Assembly (NCBI RefSeq): GCF_016888005.1
Contig: NZ_JAFDVE010000037.1
Span: 1 to 37,065, forward strand
Source: Phycicoccus sp. CSK15P-2
Lineage (GTDB): Bacteria > Actinomycetota > Actinomycetes > Actinomycetales > Dermatophilaceae
Direction: 5' to 3'
Length of the DNA stretch: 37,065 nt
The notes under the pieces were generated by a model that saw nothing but the letters and a program-made list of their open reading frames with translations, was not told the DNA's origin and searched no databases. This document shows, one piece after another, positions 32,049 to 36,877 of this stretch. The position numbers and the translations under genes are program-made. How positions within the stretch are numbered: the stretch's first letter is position 1; every line of letters begins with the position of its first letter.

Positions 32049-32162
32049 ACGATGGGAGGCCCGAGAAACCCCCGCCCGTATCTCCCGGAACGCCTCGGCG
32101 AACCGGCACGAACGGGCCGCACCCGACCTGCGACGATGCACAGGACGCGGACGAGCCTCGGC

Positions 32163-32438
32163 TCAGCCGGTCCGTCCGTACCGCTCGGCCGCCCGAGCCC
32201 GCGCCTTCGCCGCCTCGACCTCGCGGTCCTTCGGCGGGGCGTGCGTGACGAGCGCGTCGAGGAGCCGCTGCGTCACGGCCGCCACCTCCTCGACCGCCTG
32301 GTCGAAGGCCTCCGCGTTGGTCTGCGACGGACGCGTCGAGCCGCTGACCTTCCGGACGTACTGCAGGGCCGCGGCGCGGACCTCGTCCGTCGTCGCCGGA
32401 GGCTCGAAGTTGTGGAGCTGGCGGATGTTGCGGCACAT
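32163..32438 (-). CDS. DUF2277 family protein
   Basis: 91 residues. MCRNIRQLHNFEPPATTDEVR, then AAALQYVRKVSGSTRPSQTNA, DQAVEEVAA, LLDAL, and the end APPKDREVEAAKARARAAERYG match the whole of DUF2277, a small alpha-helical family common in actinomycetes and proteobacteria. MCRNIR with its Cys and the HxxPP-like start are invariant. The function is unknown. It is transcribed away from the first hairpin repeat (32472-32542), which lies 34 nt upstream of its start. Confidence 0.93.
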   Translation of the reverse strand: MCRNIRQLHNFEPPATTDEVRAAALQYVRKVSGSTRPSQTNAEAFDQAVEEVAAVTQRLLDALVTHAPPKDREVEAAKARARAAERYGRTG

Positions 32439-32471
32439 GCCCCCAACGGTAGGCCCGGCCCCCCAACTTCT

Positions 32472-32542
32472 GCGGAGTCAGGGGCATCCCGTGTGATCAG
32501 GGGTCTACAGGCCCATGATCCCGCAGGAAACCCCTGACCCGG
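32472..32542. repeat. Hairpin repeat, copy A (of three)
   Basis: An imperfect ~71-nt inverted repeat: the outer arms GTCAGGGG / CCCCTGAC enclose a second pairing GATCAGGGG / CCCATGATC around TCTACAGG. It shares the GCGGAGTCAGGG-CATCCCG block with copies B and C but is the most diverged. Its CTTCTGCGG left flank resembles the reverse complement of the right flank of copy C, so it lies in the opposite orientation. Confidence 0.8.
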
Positions 32543-32631
32543 CACGCCTCATCCACCCCACGCCACCCAGACCGCCGACCGCCCAAAACCCACCACCCGG
32601 AAGCCCCGGCGAACGACACCAGCACGCCAGG

Positions 32632-33585
32632 TCAGGGGTGCCGGACAACGCGCGGCAGCCAGGTGTTCACCGCCTGCTGCCGGATCCCCTGCTCGTCGAG
32701 GCGCGCCGCCAGCTGCGGGGCATCCATCGCCACCGCCCAGGTCCACCGGGCGACCCGGCATCGCCGACGCAGCCGGTCCTCGCGCTGCTTCTCCCGCCAG
32801 AGGACCTGGGCCGCGTCCTCCTGGCCGGCCCCGTCCGGCACGCCGTACTTCACCCGGCCGTCGAACTCGCCCACCACGCCGTCCCAGCCGAAGTCACACA
32901 CGCCCACGAGCCCGTCGTCGTCGAGGACCTCCACCTGGAGATCCGGACGGGGCAGGTTGAGCAGGTACATGCGTGCCCGGGACAGGCTCTCTCCGACCGA
33001 CATCGACCGTGCGTCCGCGAGCGCCGCCACCACACCGGCGACCGGGCGGCCACGGACGCGCGGCGGGACGGCGTCCGCCTCGGCGAGCAGCTCGTCGGTG
33101 GTGCAGAGCCCGAAACGGAGGGCATGGTCGGCCGCGGCGAGCGCCGTGACGAACGACCCGGTGCGGGCGAGGTCGACCACGGTGCGCGCCGCCGGCGTGA
33201 CCCGCAACCCGAACCGCTGCTGCGCCTCGCTCCGTCGGCCCACGTGCGGGCGGACGTGGGCGGTGCTGCGGCCACGCTGCGCGGTCTCTACGAGCACCCG
33301 GACCGACTCCGGCCACGGCTCGATGCGCGGCAGACCCCACACCGCGGCAGCCGAGGACAGGGCGAACACGGGGTCCTCCCGGCCGACGACGAGTGCAGTG
33401 GCGTGGACGCGCGCGGCGTGACGCTGCTCGGGCGTCAGCCCCGACCAGGACTGACGGGGCATCCACACCCCGTGGCGGACCTGGTGCCATCCGCCCGCCG
33501 TGGGTTCGATGCCGGATGCGCGGAGGTCACGCGCCAGGCGCAGCACCCCGGGGTCGAACGGGGTCGGGGCGGGCGGTCCGAGCAT
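32632..33585 (-). CDS. DUF559 / AbiEi-antitoxin-like protein
   Basis: 317 residues from ATG 33585 (GTG 33594 is possible). Central GLRVTPAARTVVDLARTGSFV then TALAAADHALR and the C-terminal GVCDFGWDGVVGEFDGRVKYG then WREKQREDRLRRRCRVARWTW are the pattern of the large actinobacterial family labelled type IV toxin-antitoxin AbiEi-like or DUF559. The C-terminal part is a Vsr-like PD-(D/E)XK fold: D in CDFGWD and E-F-D-G-R-x-K as core. Members are usually solitary, without the AbiEii toxin, as here, and their role is unknown. The usual N-terminal ~20-residue helix-turn-helix start is not clear in this copy. It lies between hairpin copies A and B. Confidence 0.75.
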   Translation of the reverse strand: MLGPPAPTPFDPGVLRLARDLRASGIEPTAGGWHQVRHGVWMPRQSWSGLTPEQRHAARVHATALVVGREDPVFALSSAAAVWGLPRIEPWPESVRVLVETAQRGRSTAHVRPHVGRRSEAQQRFGLRVTPAARTVVDLARTGSFVTALAAADHALRFGLCTTDELLAEADAVPPRVRGRPVAGVVAALADARSMSVGESLSRARMYLLNLPRPDLQVEVLDDDGLVGVCDFGWDGVVGEFDGRVKYGVPDGAGQEDAAQVLWREKQREDRLRRRCRVARWTWAVAMDAPQLAARLDEQGIRQQAVNTWLPRVVRHP

Positions 33586-33660
33586 GGGCGTCACGATGGC
33601 AGGAACGCCGTTCGACGCCGGCCCGTCATCCACAGGCCCGGTCCGCCCAGCCTGCCTCCC

Positions 33661-33732
33661 CGCGGGGTCAGGGCCATCCCGTGGGGTCATGGTGCTATAG
33701 ACCCCTGACCCCACGGGATGCCCCTGACCCGC
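33661..33732. repeat. Hairpin repeat, copy B (of three)
   Basis: The best-paired copy: about 30 bp of near-perfect stem, with left arm from GGGGTCAGGGCCATCCCGTG and right arm ending CACGGGATGCCCCTGACCC, around a GCTATA-centred loop. Each arm itself contains GTCAGGG or GTCATGG twice, 19 bp apart. It lies between the divergent DUF559-like and MATE genes. Confidence 0.9.
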
Positions 33733-33800
33733 AAGAGGGGGAAGGGAATGGGGCGGCGGGCGACCACGGTGCGTCGCGGGACGCTCATGCGCTCCCGGGT

Positions 33801-33814
33801 GCGAGAGTTCTCGC
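33801..33814. promoter_or_regulatory. Dyad GCGAGA-N2-TCTCGC directly before the MATE start
   Basis: The 14-bp inverted repeat ends at 33814 and the GTG start is at 33815, leaving no space for a ribosome site. It may be an operator on a leaderless transcript, or a sign that the true start is a little further downstream (for example GTG 33830). Confidence 0.3.
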
Positions 33815-35173
33815 GTGGGCGAGCAGCCGGCGGTGAGGCAGCACCGGGAGGTGCTCCGCCTCGCCGTCCCCGCCTTCCTCGCGCTCGTCGCCGAGCCGCT
33901 CTTCCTCCTCGTCGACTCCGCGATCGTCGGCCGCCTCGGGGTCGAGCCGCTCGCCGGGCTCGGCGTCGCGAGCGCCGTCCTCCTCACCGCCGCCAACGTC
34001 TTCGTCTTCCTCGCCTACGGCACGACGTCCGTCGTCGCCCGGCAGCTCGGCGCGGGGTCGCGCTCCGGCGCCGTGGCGGCAGGTATCGACGGCGGATGGC
34101 TCGCCGTCGCCCTCGGCACCGTCACCGCCGCGGCCGTCGCCCTCACGGCCCGGCCGGTCGCCGGGGTGTTCGGCGCGAGCGCCGGCGCGCTCGACGAGGC
34201 GACCACCTACCTGCGCATCTCCGCCCTGGGGATCCCCGGGATGCTCGTGGTCCTCGCGACGACCGGCGTGCTGCGCGGGCTCCAGGACACCCGTACCCCG
34301 CTCGCCGCCGCGGTCCTCGGTTTCGGGACGAACGCGCTGCTCAGCCTGTGGTTCGTGCACGGCCTCGGATGGGGCATCGCGGGGTCGGCGTGGGGGACGG
34401 TCATGGCCCAGACCGGGATGGCGCTCGGGCTCGGGACCGTGCTGGTCCGCGAGGCCGGCCGGGCGGAGGTTGCGCTGCGGGCACACCCGGGACGGGTCCT
34501 CGCGGCCGCCCGCGGCGGGGTCCCCCTGCTCGTGCGCACCCTCGCGCTGCGGGCCGTCCTCGTCCTGACCACCTGGGTCGCAGCGGGTCTCGGCGACGTG
34601 CCGCTCGCGTCGTACCAGGTCACGGCGACCATCTGGTCGTTCCTCACCTTCGCCCTGGATGCCATCGCCATCGCCGCGCAGGCGATCACCGGCCGGGCGC
34701 TCGGGGCCGGGGACCTCACGACGACACGTGCCGCGACCCGCCTCATGCTCCGGTGGGGCGTGCTCGCCGGTGTCGTCCTCGGGCTGTCCGTGCTCGCCGC
34801 CCGGCCCTGGCTCGGGCCGTTCTTCACCCCGGACGCCGACGTACAGGCCGCCATCGCCGCAGGTCTGGTCGTCGTCGCGCTCGGGCAGCCCTTGTCGGGC
34901 TTCGTCTTCGTCGTCGACGGCGTCCTCATCGGCGCCGGGGACGGACGGTGGCTCGCCTGGGCGATGGCGGCCACCTTCGCGCTCTACCTGCCCGTCGCGC
35001 TCGGCCTGCACCTCGCGGGCGACTGGCTGCTCCAGGGCGGGACGCAGGGCGGCATCACCGACGCCGTCACCTGGCTGTGGCTCGCGTTCACCGTATTCAT
35101 GTCGGTCCGCGGGACGCTCATGTGGATGCGGGTGCGCACCGACCGCTGGATGGTGACCGGGGCGGTCCGCTGA
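33815..35173 (+). CDS. MATE-family multidrug/Na+ exporter (DinF-like)
   Basis: 452 residues from GTG 33815, with 12 membrane segments in two halves of six. REVLRLAVPAFLALVAEPLFLLVDSAIVGRLG with PLAGLGVA opens the first half, YGTTSVVARQLGAG, ALGIPGMLVVLATTGVLRGLQDTRTPL closes it, and the second begins LLVRTLALRAVLVLTTW with DAIAIAAQAITGRALGAGD. This is the DinF branch of MATE (PF01554). It exports cationic compounds in exchange for Na+ or H+. MATE genes near dnaB are, to my knowledge, a recurrent arrangement in related actinomycetes. Hairpin copy C follows the stop. Confidence 0.92.
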   Translation: MGEQPAVRQHREVLRLAVPAFLALVAEPLFLLVDSAIVGRLGVEPLAGLGVASAVLLTAANVFVFLAYGTTSVVARQLGAGSRSGAVAAGIDGGWLAVALGTVTAAAVALTARPVAGVFGASAGALDEATTYLRISALGIPGMLVVLATTGVLRGLQDTRTPLAAAVLGFGTNALLSLWFVHGLGWGIAGSAWGTVMAQTGMALGLGTVLVREAGRAEVALRAHPGRVLAAARGGVPLLVRTLALRAVLVLTTWVAAGLGDVPLASYQVTATIWSFLTFALDAIAIAAQAITGRALGAGDLTTTRAATRLMLRWGVLAGVVLGLSVLAARPWLGPFFTPDADVQAAIAAGLVVVALGQPLSGFVFVVDGVLIGAGDGRWLAWAMAATFALYLPVALGLHLAGDWLLQGGTQGGITDAVTWLWLAFTVFMSVRGTLMWMRVRTDRWMVTGAVR

Positions 35174-35225
35174 CCCGGCCAGCCGGGGGGCGTCGGCGCT
35201 CGCCCTTTCATCCCTCGACGCACTG

Positions 35226-35297
35226 GCGAAGTCAGGGCCATCCCGTCGCCTCAGGGGGCTATGGACCCCTGACTCCGCGGGATGGCCCTGACTCCGC
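35226..35297. repeat. Hairpin repeat, copy C (of three)
   Basis: Left arm from GCGAAGTCAGGGCCATCCCG, right arm ending CGCGGGATGGCCCTGACTCCGC, with an inner TCAGGGG / CCCCTGA pairing around GCTATGG. It lies between the convergent MATE and gamma-glutamyltransferase genes, 52 nt and 35 nt from their stops. The A-rich tail GCAAAAGAGGG on the right is shared with copy B (GCAAGAGGGG). Confidence 0.9.
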
Positions 35298-35332
35298 AAA
35301 AGAGGGTGGGGGTCAGGAGGTGAGGAGGGGCC

Positions 35333-36877
35333 TCAGGAGGGGATGCCGACGATCCCGACGGCGGCCTCGCGCCGGGGGTCACCGGCCGCGACGAGCGTGC
35401 CGTCCTCGCGGCGGTACGCGGCCCCGACCCCGCCGAAGTACATCGACAGCTCGCCGTGGTCGGTCGCTCGGAGACCGGCGGCCCGGACCGCCGCCTCGAT
35501 CGCCTCGTCGCTCTCGTGCTCGACGACCGGCTCGCCGTCGGCCTCGAAGCGGACGTGCATCCGGGGCGCGTCCACGGCGGTCTGCAGGTCGGCCCCGTGC
35601 AGGCAGCCCTGGCCGAGCACCTGCATGAGCGCCGTCGTGATGCGGTCCGCGCCGGGCGACCCGACGGCGATGACCCGCCCGTCCGGCGTGCGGCCCGTCG
35701 TCGGGGCCATGTTCGACGCCAGCCGCGTCCCCGGGGCGAGCCGGTGCAGCCCGATCCGGTTGAGCTCGGGCTCGCCGAGCGCGTTGTTGAGCAGCATCCC
35801 GGTGCCGGGCACGGTGATCCCGGCGCCGTAGCCCGCGGACATCGTGACCGCGCACGTCGTGCCGTCGGCGTCCACCGCCGAGACGTGCGCCGTGGACGCC
35901 GAGGTGGGCAGCCCCGCCAGACCGTGCTGGTCGACGGAGGCCAAGAGCTGGTGCCCCGCCGCGTCGAGGTCGGCTGCGTGGTCGTGCACCGCCACGCGGT
36001 ACCGCAGCACCGCCCGCTGGACCTCCAGGACGTCCGCCCACGAGTAGTCGCCCCGCCGGGCGAGCTCGCCGAGCATCACCGCGAGCATCGGACCACCGAC
36101 GGACGGAGGCGGGTTGACCGCGAGGTCCCAGTCCCCCACCTGCCGCCGCACCGGCGCCCGCTCGACCGGCCGGTACTCGCCCAGGTCCGCAGCCGTGACG
36201 AGCCCGCCCCGCGCGGCGAGGTCGGCGACCATCGCGCGGCCGACCTCCCCGGTCGTGAGGACGGCCGCCCCCTCGCGCGCGACGAGGTCGAGGACGTCGG
36301 CCAGCGGCCCGTTCGTCGTGACCTCCCCCGGGGCGAGGGCGCCGCCGTCGGCCCGGGTGACGACGGCGTGCGCCTCGGCGTCGGCCCCGAAGAGCGGTTC
36401 CCCGACGAAGCCGAGGTAGCGGGCCGCCGCGCCGTTCAGCGGGTACCCCTCGCGACACGCACGCACCGCCGGGGCCACGACGTCGGCCCACGGCAGGCTC
36501 CCGTACCGGGTGGCGGCGTCCTCGCACGCCAGCGCCGCGCCCGGGGTGGCCACCGAGCCGGGCCCCGCGAACATCGTCACTCCCCCGCCGTACGTCGTGT
36601 ACACCTCGCGCACGCCGCCGCCGAACGCGTCCGGCTCCAGCCCGCGCCCGGGCATCTCGACGTTGCCGTCGACGACGACCGGCTCCTCGCCCGCCCGCCA
36701 GACCGACACGTACGCGCCACCACCGAGCGAGACGATGCCCGGCTCGGTCGCCATCGCCGCCACCGCGGCGGTCACCGCGACGTCCACGGCGTTCCCGCCG
36801 GCCCGGGCGGCCTCGGCACCGGCGGCGAGCGACACCCGCCCGGTCGCCGCGAGCGCCACCTCAGCCATGGCCCGCAT
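35333..36877 (-). CDS. Gamma-glutamyltransferase-family (Ntn) hydrolase
   Basis: 514 residues. The N-terminal part has AAGAEAARAGGNAVDVAVTA and GIVSLGGGAYVSVW, with TMFAGPGSVATPGAALACED as the GGT region around the donor site. The autoprocessing Thr is T329 in STAHVSAVDADGTTCAV, which becomes the nucleophile after cleavage. TGMLLNNALGE, LASNMAPT and VIAVGSPGADRITTAL are standard later motifs. No signal peptide is seen from ATG 36877 (or 36868), so it is probably cytoplasmic, as in the YwrD-like group, rather than periplasmic glutathione-type GGT. Actinomycetes use mycothiol, so the substrate may be another gamma-glutamyl or amide compound. Monocistronic. Confidence 0.9.
   Translation of the reverse strand: MRAMAEVALAATGRVSLAAGAEAARAGGNAVDVAVTAAVAAMATEPGIVSLGGGAYVSVWRAGEEPVVVDGNVEMPGRGLEPDAFGGGVREVYTTYGGGVTMFAGPGSVATPGAALACEDAATRYGSLPWADVVAPAVRACREGYPLNGAAARYLGFVGEPLFGADAEAHAVVTRADGGALAPGEVTTNGPLADVLDLVAREGAAVLTTGEVGRAMVADLAARGGLVTAADLGEYRPVERAPVRRQVGDWDLAVNPPPSVGGPMLAVMLGELARRGDYSWADVLEVQRAVLRYRVAVHDHAADLDAAGHQLLASVDQHGLAGLPTSASTAHVSAVDADGTTCAVTMSAGYGAGITVPGTGMLLNNALGEPELNRIGLHRLAPGTRLASNMAPTTGRTPDGRVIAVGSPGADRITTALMQVLGQGCLHGADLQTAVDAPRMHVRFEADGEPVVEHESDEAIEAAVRAAGLRATDHGELSMYFGGVGAAYRREDGTLVAAGDPRREAAVGIVGIPS

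Follow-up and report, generated by a model that had tools for sequence, protein, structure and literature searches.

A hairpin repeat and the gene between two of its copies

The window, by which we mean the whole 37,065-nt stretch of Phycicoccus sp. CSK15P-2 DNA that was analysed, contains three copies (A, B and C) of a two-tier hairpin repeat, two of which flank a single gene that we call the associated gene. The other genes listed are neighbours and serve as context only, and positions 1–60 look like the tail of an IS transposase gene.

32163..32438, minus strand: gene for a DUF2277 protein (neighbour)
32472..32541, no strand assigned: hairpin copy A, 90 bp 3′ of the stop of the associated gene
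32632..33585, minus strand: associated gene, 317 amino acids from its ATG; predicted AbiEi-like part and I-Bth0305I/Vsr-like nuclease fold
33662..33732, no strand assigned: hairpin copy B, 76 bp 5′ of the ATG of the associated gene, in a divergent gap
33815..35173, plus strand: gene for a MATE family transporter (neighbour)
35226..35297, no strand assigned: hairpin copy C, in the convergent gap between the MATE and gamma-glutamyltransferase genes
35333..36877, minus strand: gamma-glutamyltranspeptidase gene (neighbour)

The initial annotation had reported three copies of about 71 nt, one before a start, one between divergent genes and one between convergent genes, and these are present and correctly placed; their folding z-scores against 200 shuffles each are strong (−5.9, −8.9 and −8.2 for A, B and C). 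What it overlooked is the key link, namely that copies A and B flank one gene. It had also stated that a count of only three would speak against a REP/BIME- or MITE-like repeat; in the 3.9-Mb genome, a covariance model made with seven copies recovers those seven, 70–72 nt long (14 rows, each copy on both strands, plus a weak 41-nt row at E 0.63), and no predicted gene contains any of them. The remaining four are outside the window on different contigs: D on contig C45, E on C30, F on C37 between lipB and lipA, and G on C33 after bioD (the genes were named from their translations). All seven fold better than every one of their own 200 shuffles. When the seven copies are aligned, pairing holds in 87.8% of cells, and changes on both sides are seen in 8 of 28 pairs, values that none of 500 shuffles matches, and the value for further pair types is reached by 17 of 500; the structure was taken from the same alignment, which biases this test in its favour.

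Two details of the repeat differ from the first description. The word GTCAGGG was said to occur twice per arm and four times per copy: the 19-bp spacing stands (positions 33667 and 33686 in copy B, 35231 and 35250 in copy C), but the exact 7-mer is not found fourfold in every copy because the inner word is TCAGGG or TCATGG. The A-rich flank GCAARAG, thought to give the element a direction, is not seen by eye beside copies D–G and therefore lies outside the element.

This hairpin family is rare outside its own genome. Rfam has no family in the window, and near-copy pattern scans gave no match in the viral or genome contig collections. With the top candidates per genome scored, a covariance search at E 0.001 found it in none of 11 congeners and gave matches in 4 of 97 other genomes, three of which (G032, G053 and G095) have hairpins of other, unrelated sequence and were set aside. 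A pattern allowing three mismatches matched 2 of 186 family genomes, its own and that of Knoellia locipacati (G027).

The associated protein is predicted with high confidence (pLDDT 94.5) to combine an AbiEi fold (model residues 13–191), which AbiEi profiles match also, with a nuclease domain of the I-Bth0305I/Vsr-like fold (residues 196–302); across the protein family this domain keeps invariant acidic residues and has no invariant histidine. The protein has no match in Pfam or NCBIfam and none in a PDB sequence search, and searches of PHROGs and NCBIfam gave stray matches only. At E 1e-20, relatives occur in 65 of 186 family genomes, with a single occurrence in the genome studied here, and the 80 relatives retained of 459 in named genomes include Cellulomonas, Georgenia and Naasia. 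Among 50,697 phage records there was no match to the family, among 72,556 plasmid records there was one partial match, and of 47 stretches in viral contigs that matched the family pattern none was confirmed. Several family genes carry one internal stop (L141, L146, L147 and L160), and some copies of the gene may be decaying while the hairpins stay alongside. One relative (L194) comes from a record titled as an Armatimonadota metagenome-assembled genome, although the family is otherwise actinobacterial; this contig may be mis-binned.

Hairpins beside relatives of the gene

In Knoellia locipacati, one of two related hairpins lies just 5′ of the relative of the gene and another of the same type lies just 3′ of its stop; in some genomes of the same genus as ours, relatives are likewise adjoined by hairpins, of other sequence. 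Among 71 loci taken from the protein search (every match listed down to E 3.6e-53, weaker ones being left out), a hairpin of at least 50 nt scoring at least 12 lies beside the gene in 54, and on both sides in 20. After removal of relatives sharing an identical 100-residue stretch, 107 distinct genes remained, of which 80 are adjoined by a hairpin of 50–84 nt. Many of the upstream hairpins lie about 40–300 bp before the aligned start.

Two earlier measures of enrichment gave 65 hairpins in 43.1 kb near the gene versus 7 in 157.9 kb far from it, and 77 in 47.9 kb versus 34 in 670.9 kb. Because the control DNA in both was mostly coding, we prefer an intergenic control, in which regions of 60–700 bp were called by a simple gene finder of our own at 80 loci: a long hairpin is present in 61 of 123 regions beside the gene versus 23 of 243 other regions (Fisher p 4e-17). 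Long hairpins are not rare elsewhere, yet they are about five times commoner beside the gene.

The hairpin words vary from gene to gene and between species, and the hairpins have an anatomy in common even where their sequences are unrelated: a word occurs twice per arm, 19 or 20 bp apart, with its complements in the other arm. To describe it we used 59 hairpins dereplicated to below 0.4 similarity, 56–84 nt long (a 56-nt floor and the 84-nt limit of the scan). Agreement of an arm with itself is 48% at a lag of 19 (z 12) and 35% at a lag of 20 (z 3.7), compared with a mean of 29% at other lags. A lag of 19 or 20 scores best in 47 of the 59 versus 5 of 36 control hairpins, from which any resembling a near hairpin had been taken out beforehand, and an exact word of length at least 6 recurs at lag 19 or 20 at 47 of 80 genes. 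In the intergenic control, 5 of 24 hairpins have the period; judged by eye, two of these (L197, L245) are the gene’s own downstream hairpin, missed by the gene finder, two (L217, L250) carry the word of the local gene, and one (L249) has no near hairpin for comparison. Also by eye, some copies carry a longer array: the Knoellia subterranea hairpin family has an inverted word pair at each end, and in one Phycicoccus genome (L291, contig C326 of G002) a tandem array of words with period 19 lies 3′ of the gene, next to the hairpin. Stem mismatches on the gene-sense strand are 95 G-T versus 85 A-C (p 0.5), or 55 versus 38 in upstream hairpins alone (p 0.10); there is no G-T excess and therefore no clear sign of selection on RNA pairing.

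Hairpins on the two sides of one gene are similar. In 34 pairs of an upstream and a downstream hairpin of the same gene, the median similarity is 0.70 and 25 pairs exceed 0.5, with four below 0.3 (L235 twice, L194 and L224). Between different genes whose proteins are less than 50% identical, mean hairpin similarity is 0.13–0.14, and it rises with protein identity to 0.34 at 65–70% (13 pairs), 0.51 at 70–80% (15 pairs) and 0.78 above 90% (3 pairs). The Mantel correlation of hairpin with protein similarity is 0.518, as high in none of 2,000 permutations, a value that includes shared descent. Read from these comparisons, the co-variation is the pattern that would be expected of a protein and its cognate site, and vertical descent at conserved loci contributes to it as well.

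Dispersal of hairpins and occupancy of their sites

Copies of a gene’s hairpin also occur away from the gene; counting all places, we found 1–17 per genome. The Knoellia subterranea hairpin has matches of at least 60 nt at 17, 11, 10, 3 and 1 places in G150, G148, G145, G027 and G144; the other 6 of 11 genomes in this search have none. That of Phycicoccus HDW14 occurs at seven places in G010, at two in G002 (on both sides of the gene) and at two in G004, with one partial match each in G054 and G120 and none in 6 of 11 genomes searched. Since G004 is without a family gene at E 1e-20, its two hairpins of the G010 family (L292 and L299) are orphans, which suggests that the gene was lost there after the hairpins had dispersed. 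Among the places fetched as loci, all 65 rows, which repeat some copies, lay outside predicted genes: 36 in tandem gaps, 19 in convergent gaps, 7 in divergent gaps and 3 at the edge of a locus.

Comparison with congeners yields one empty site. At the place of copy F, the lipB–lipA gap is 117 bp in the genome studied here, and in 9 of 11 congeners it is 36–56 bp and without such a hairpin; together with the copy number and the absence of copies from predicted genes, this supports the initial reading of a dispersed family. The same gap in G010 holds a further reading frame, about 0.8 kb long, that looks methyltransferase-like by eye (L100), and in G011, which is without a family gene at E 1e-20, it holds an unrelated 91-nt hairpin (L101:237–327). 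The place of copy G is not a clean empty site because the gaps vary, from 22 to 130 bp in the nine congeners fetched, out of 11, versus 124 bp here, and four of them contain other long hairpins by eye. In this gap, between bioD and a phosphatase gene, G004, G010 and G002 (L102, L104 and L107) have a long hairpin of another kind in common, as judged by eye, with a start near CCGACTCATTG or CCCACTCATTG; this could represent a separate repeat family or else a terminator that has been conserved. Collinearity around copy C is seen in three of 11 congeners, whose gaps measure 14, 97 and 139 bp versus 159 bp here.

The gene itself tends to stay in place. G009 lacks the entire segment of copy A, gene and copy B between the DUF2277 and MATE genes (220 versus 1,462 bp); because G118 and G119 have a relative of the gene at this same place, loss is as likely as gain. 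Within clades the neighbourhoods of the gene are conserved, which is why we gave up the idea of a hairpin–gene–hairpin unit that moves frequently.

In the flanks of 41 copies, the longest shared word averages 3.15 versus 3.27 (s.d. 0.14) in shuffles, so that no target-site duplication was detected, the element ends being uncertain, and no GTAG end tag was seen by eye in the 41 flank pairs. A search for RAYT-type transposases with PF01797 (Y1_Tnp) at E 0.001 gave no match in the genome studied here and matches in 5 of 14 control genomes. These results do not support the first proposal that RAYT-type or IS enzymes move the repeat.

A proposed two-part palindrome system and its alternatives

The observations to be explained are the hairpins, their 19/20-bp word period, their link to the gene and co-variation with its protein, their dispersal, one empty site and a predicted fold; from them we infer binding, cutting and mobilisation by the associated protein. 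The explanation that we favour, and consider somewhat likelier to be right than wrong, is a palindrome system of two parts, REPtron-like (RAYT/TnpA-REP with REP/BIME) in the way it works but based on another enzyme. Its autonomous part would be the gene, with its own recognition hairpins on both sides, whose product joins an AbiEi-like DNA-binding protein to an EDxHD/Vsr-type nuclease domain, and its non-autonomous parts would be the further copies of the same hairpin between other genes. The protein would most likely bind the words, spaced by 19/20 bp, as a multimer; the nuclease domain would nick or cut at or near the hairpin, and repair from another copy would then place the hairpin at new intergenic sites, where it may do least harm. 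The simplest view of a protein that fuses AbiEi and nuclease folds, and that is mostly met next to arrays of its own word, is that it is probably the nuclease for that array.

REPtrons, as described in PMC3733652 and PMC8266576, also have a gene flanked by its own palindromes, and further cognate palindromes are scattered through intergenic regions, most of them tandem or convergent, with a sequence that varies by species. In contrast to them, no HUH/Y1 enzyme was found here, where the protein is predicted to have an AbiEi and an EDxHD/Vsr-like fold; the palindromes are at least 50 nt long with a 19/20-bp word period, whereas REPs have 20–40 nt and a GTAG tag; and we found 1–17 places per genome rather than a high copy number. 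Because there is no Y1 match and the anatomy is another one, this is not a RAYT-REP system. The second predicted domain resembles I-Bth0305I, an EDxHD homing endonuclease that, according to PMC3943268, acts as a dimer on a target of nearly 60 bp, close to the length of the hairpins. Unlike I-Bth0305I and Vsr, the protein has an AbiEi-like part joined to this fold and no invariant histidine, and its gene is bacterial, chromosomal and palindrome-flanked, not a phage intron gene. With MITEs the hairpins have in common that they are short, intergenic, non-coding, species-specific inverted-repeat elements with one site empty in relatives; a possible difference is that no target-site duplication was detected, at element ends that are uncertain.

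The main rival, which we consider unlikely while giving it real weight, is that the protein is an AbiEi-type repressor, the upstream hairpin its autoregulatory operator and the dispersed copies a small regulon, with no mobility at all. The protein begins with an AbiEi-like part, as in the antitoxins of AbiE type IV toxin–antitoxin systems (Streptococcus agalactiae AbiEi; Rv2827c), which also have repeated sites 5′ of the gene: according to PMC7319586, each binds 23-bp inverted repeats in its own promoter, two in the case of AbiEi and four in that of Rv2827c, and the distance of many upstream hairpins from the aligned start would suit an operator. However, copies that lie 3′ of the gene, or in convergent gaps as do 19 of the 65 rows (some repeated), would serve poorly as operators, site F is empty in most congeners, the words vary between species, and the nuclease fold has retained its invariant acidic residues. 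Antitoxins of the AbiE type lack the extra nuclease-fold domain and the cognate sites on both sides and dispersed, and no AbiEii toxin adjoins the gene, whose neighbours in the window (DUF2277 and MATE) are not nucleotidyltransferase toxins.

That the hairpins are instead moved in trans by an unrelated transposase or IS, with the gene a frequent bystander or passenger, seems improbable to us. It would accommodate G004, which has copies and no family gene, and a gene that stays at conserved places while hairpins disperse, but the way in which hairpin and protein vary together argues for a direct relation, though shared descent contributes; there was no Y1_Tnp match in the genome, and no target-site duplication was detected (at ends that are uncertain). 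Still less credible is that the hairpins are ordinary transcription terminators that are alike by chance. Tandem or convergent gaps do hold 55 of the 65 rows (some repeated), and the long hairpins in 23 of 243 other gaps also fit; against this, copy B lies between divergent genes, and a scan of positions 32100–35600, the stretch with copies A–C, found no T-tailed GC-hairpin terminator, in keeping with the view of the initial annotation that simple termination does not explain all three. Terminators, too, would not have a word in common with the hairpin across the same gene, nor a 19/20-bp period, and the balance of G-T and A-C mismatches on the gene-sense strand offers them nothing.

Returning to the two-part system, a stronger form of it, on which our judgement is evenly balanced, is that it would be a second, independently evolved kind of REPtron, in which an antitoxin-type DNA-binding protein with a homing-endonuclease/Vsr-like nuclease recognises iterated-word hairpins of 19/20-bp period and copies them about bacterial chromosomes, with a lineage-specific word matched to the protein. 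Statistics now connect a repeat family, in whose genome no RAYT was detected, with a specific and testable protein family, and AbiEi-like proteins would seem to be more than antitoxins. From the many pairs of protein and word one could obtain a natural code of DNA recognition, and the system, if true, would newly supply sequence-specific nucleases that have long targets. Among the open PMC papers listed in literature searches, as represented by their titles and the starts of their abstracts, we saw none that connects palindromic repeats with AbiEi, Vsr or DUF559 proteins.
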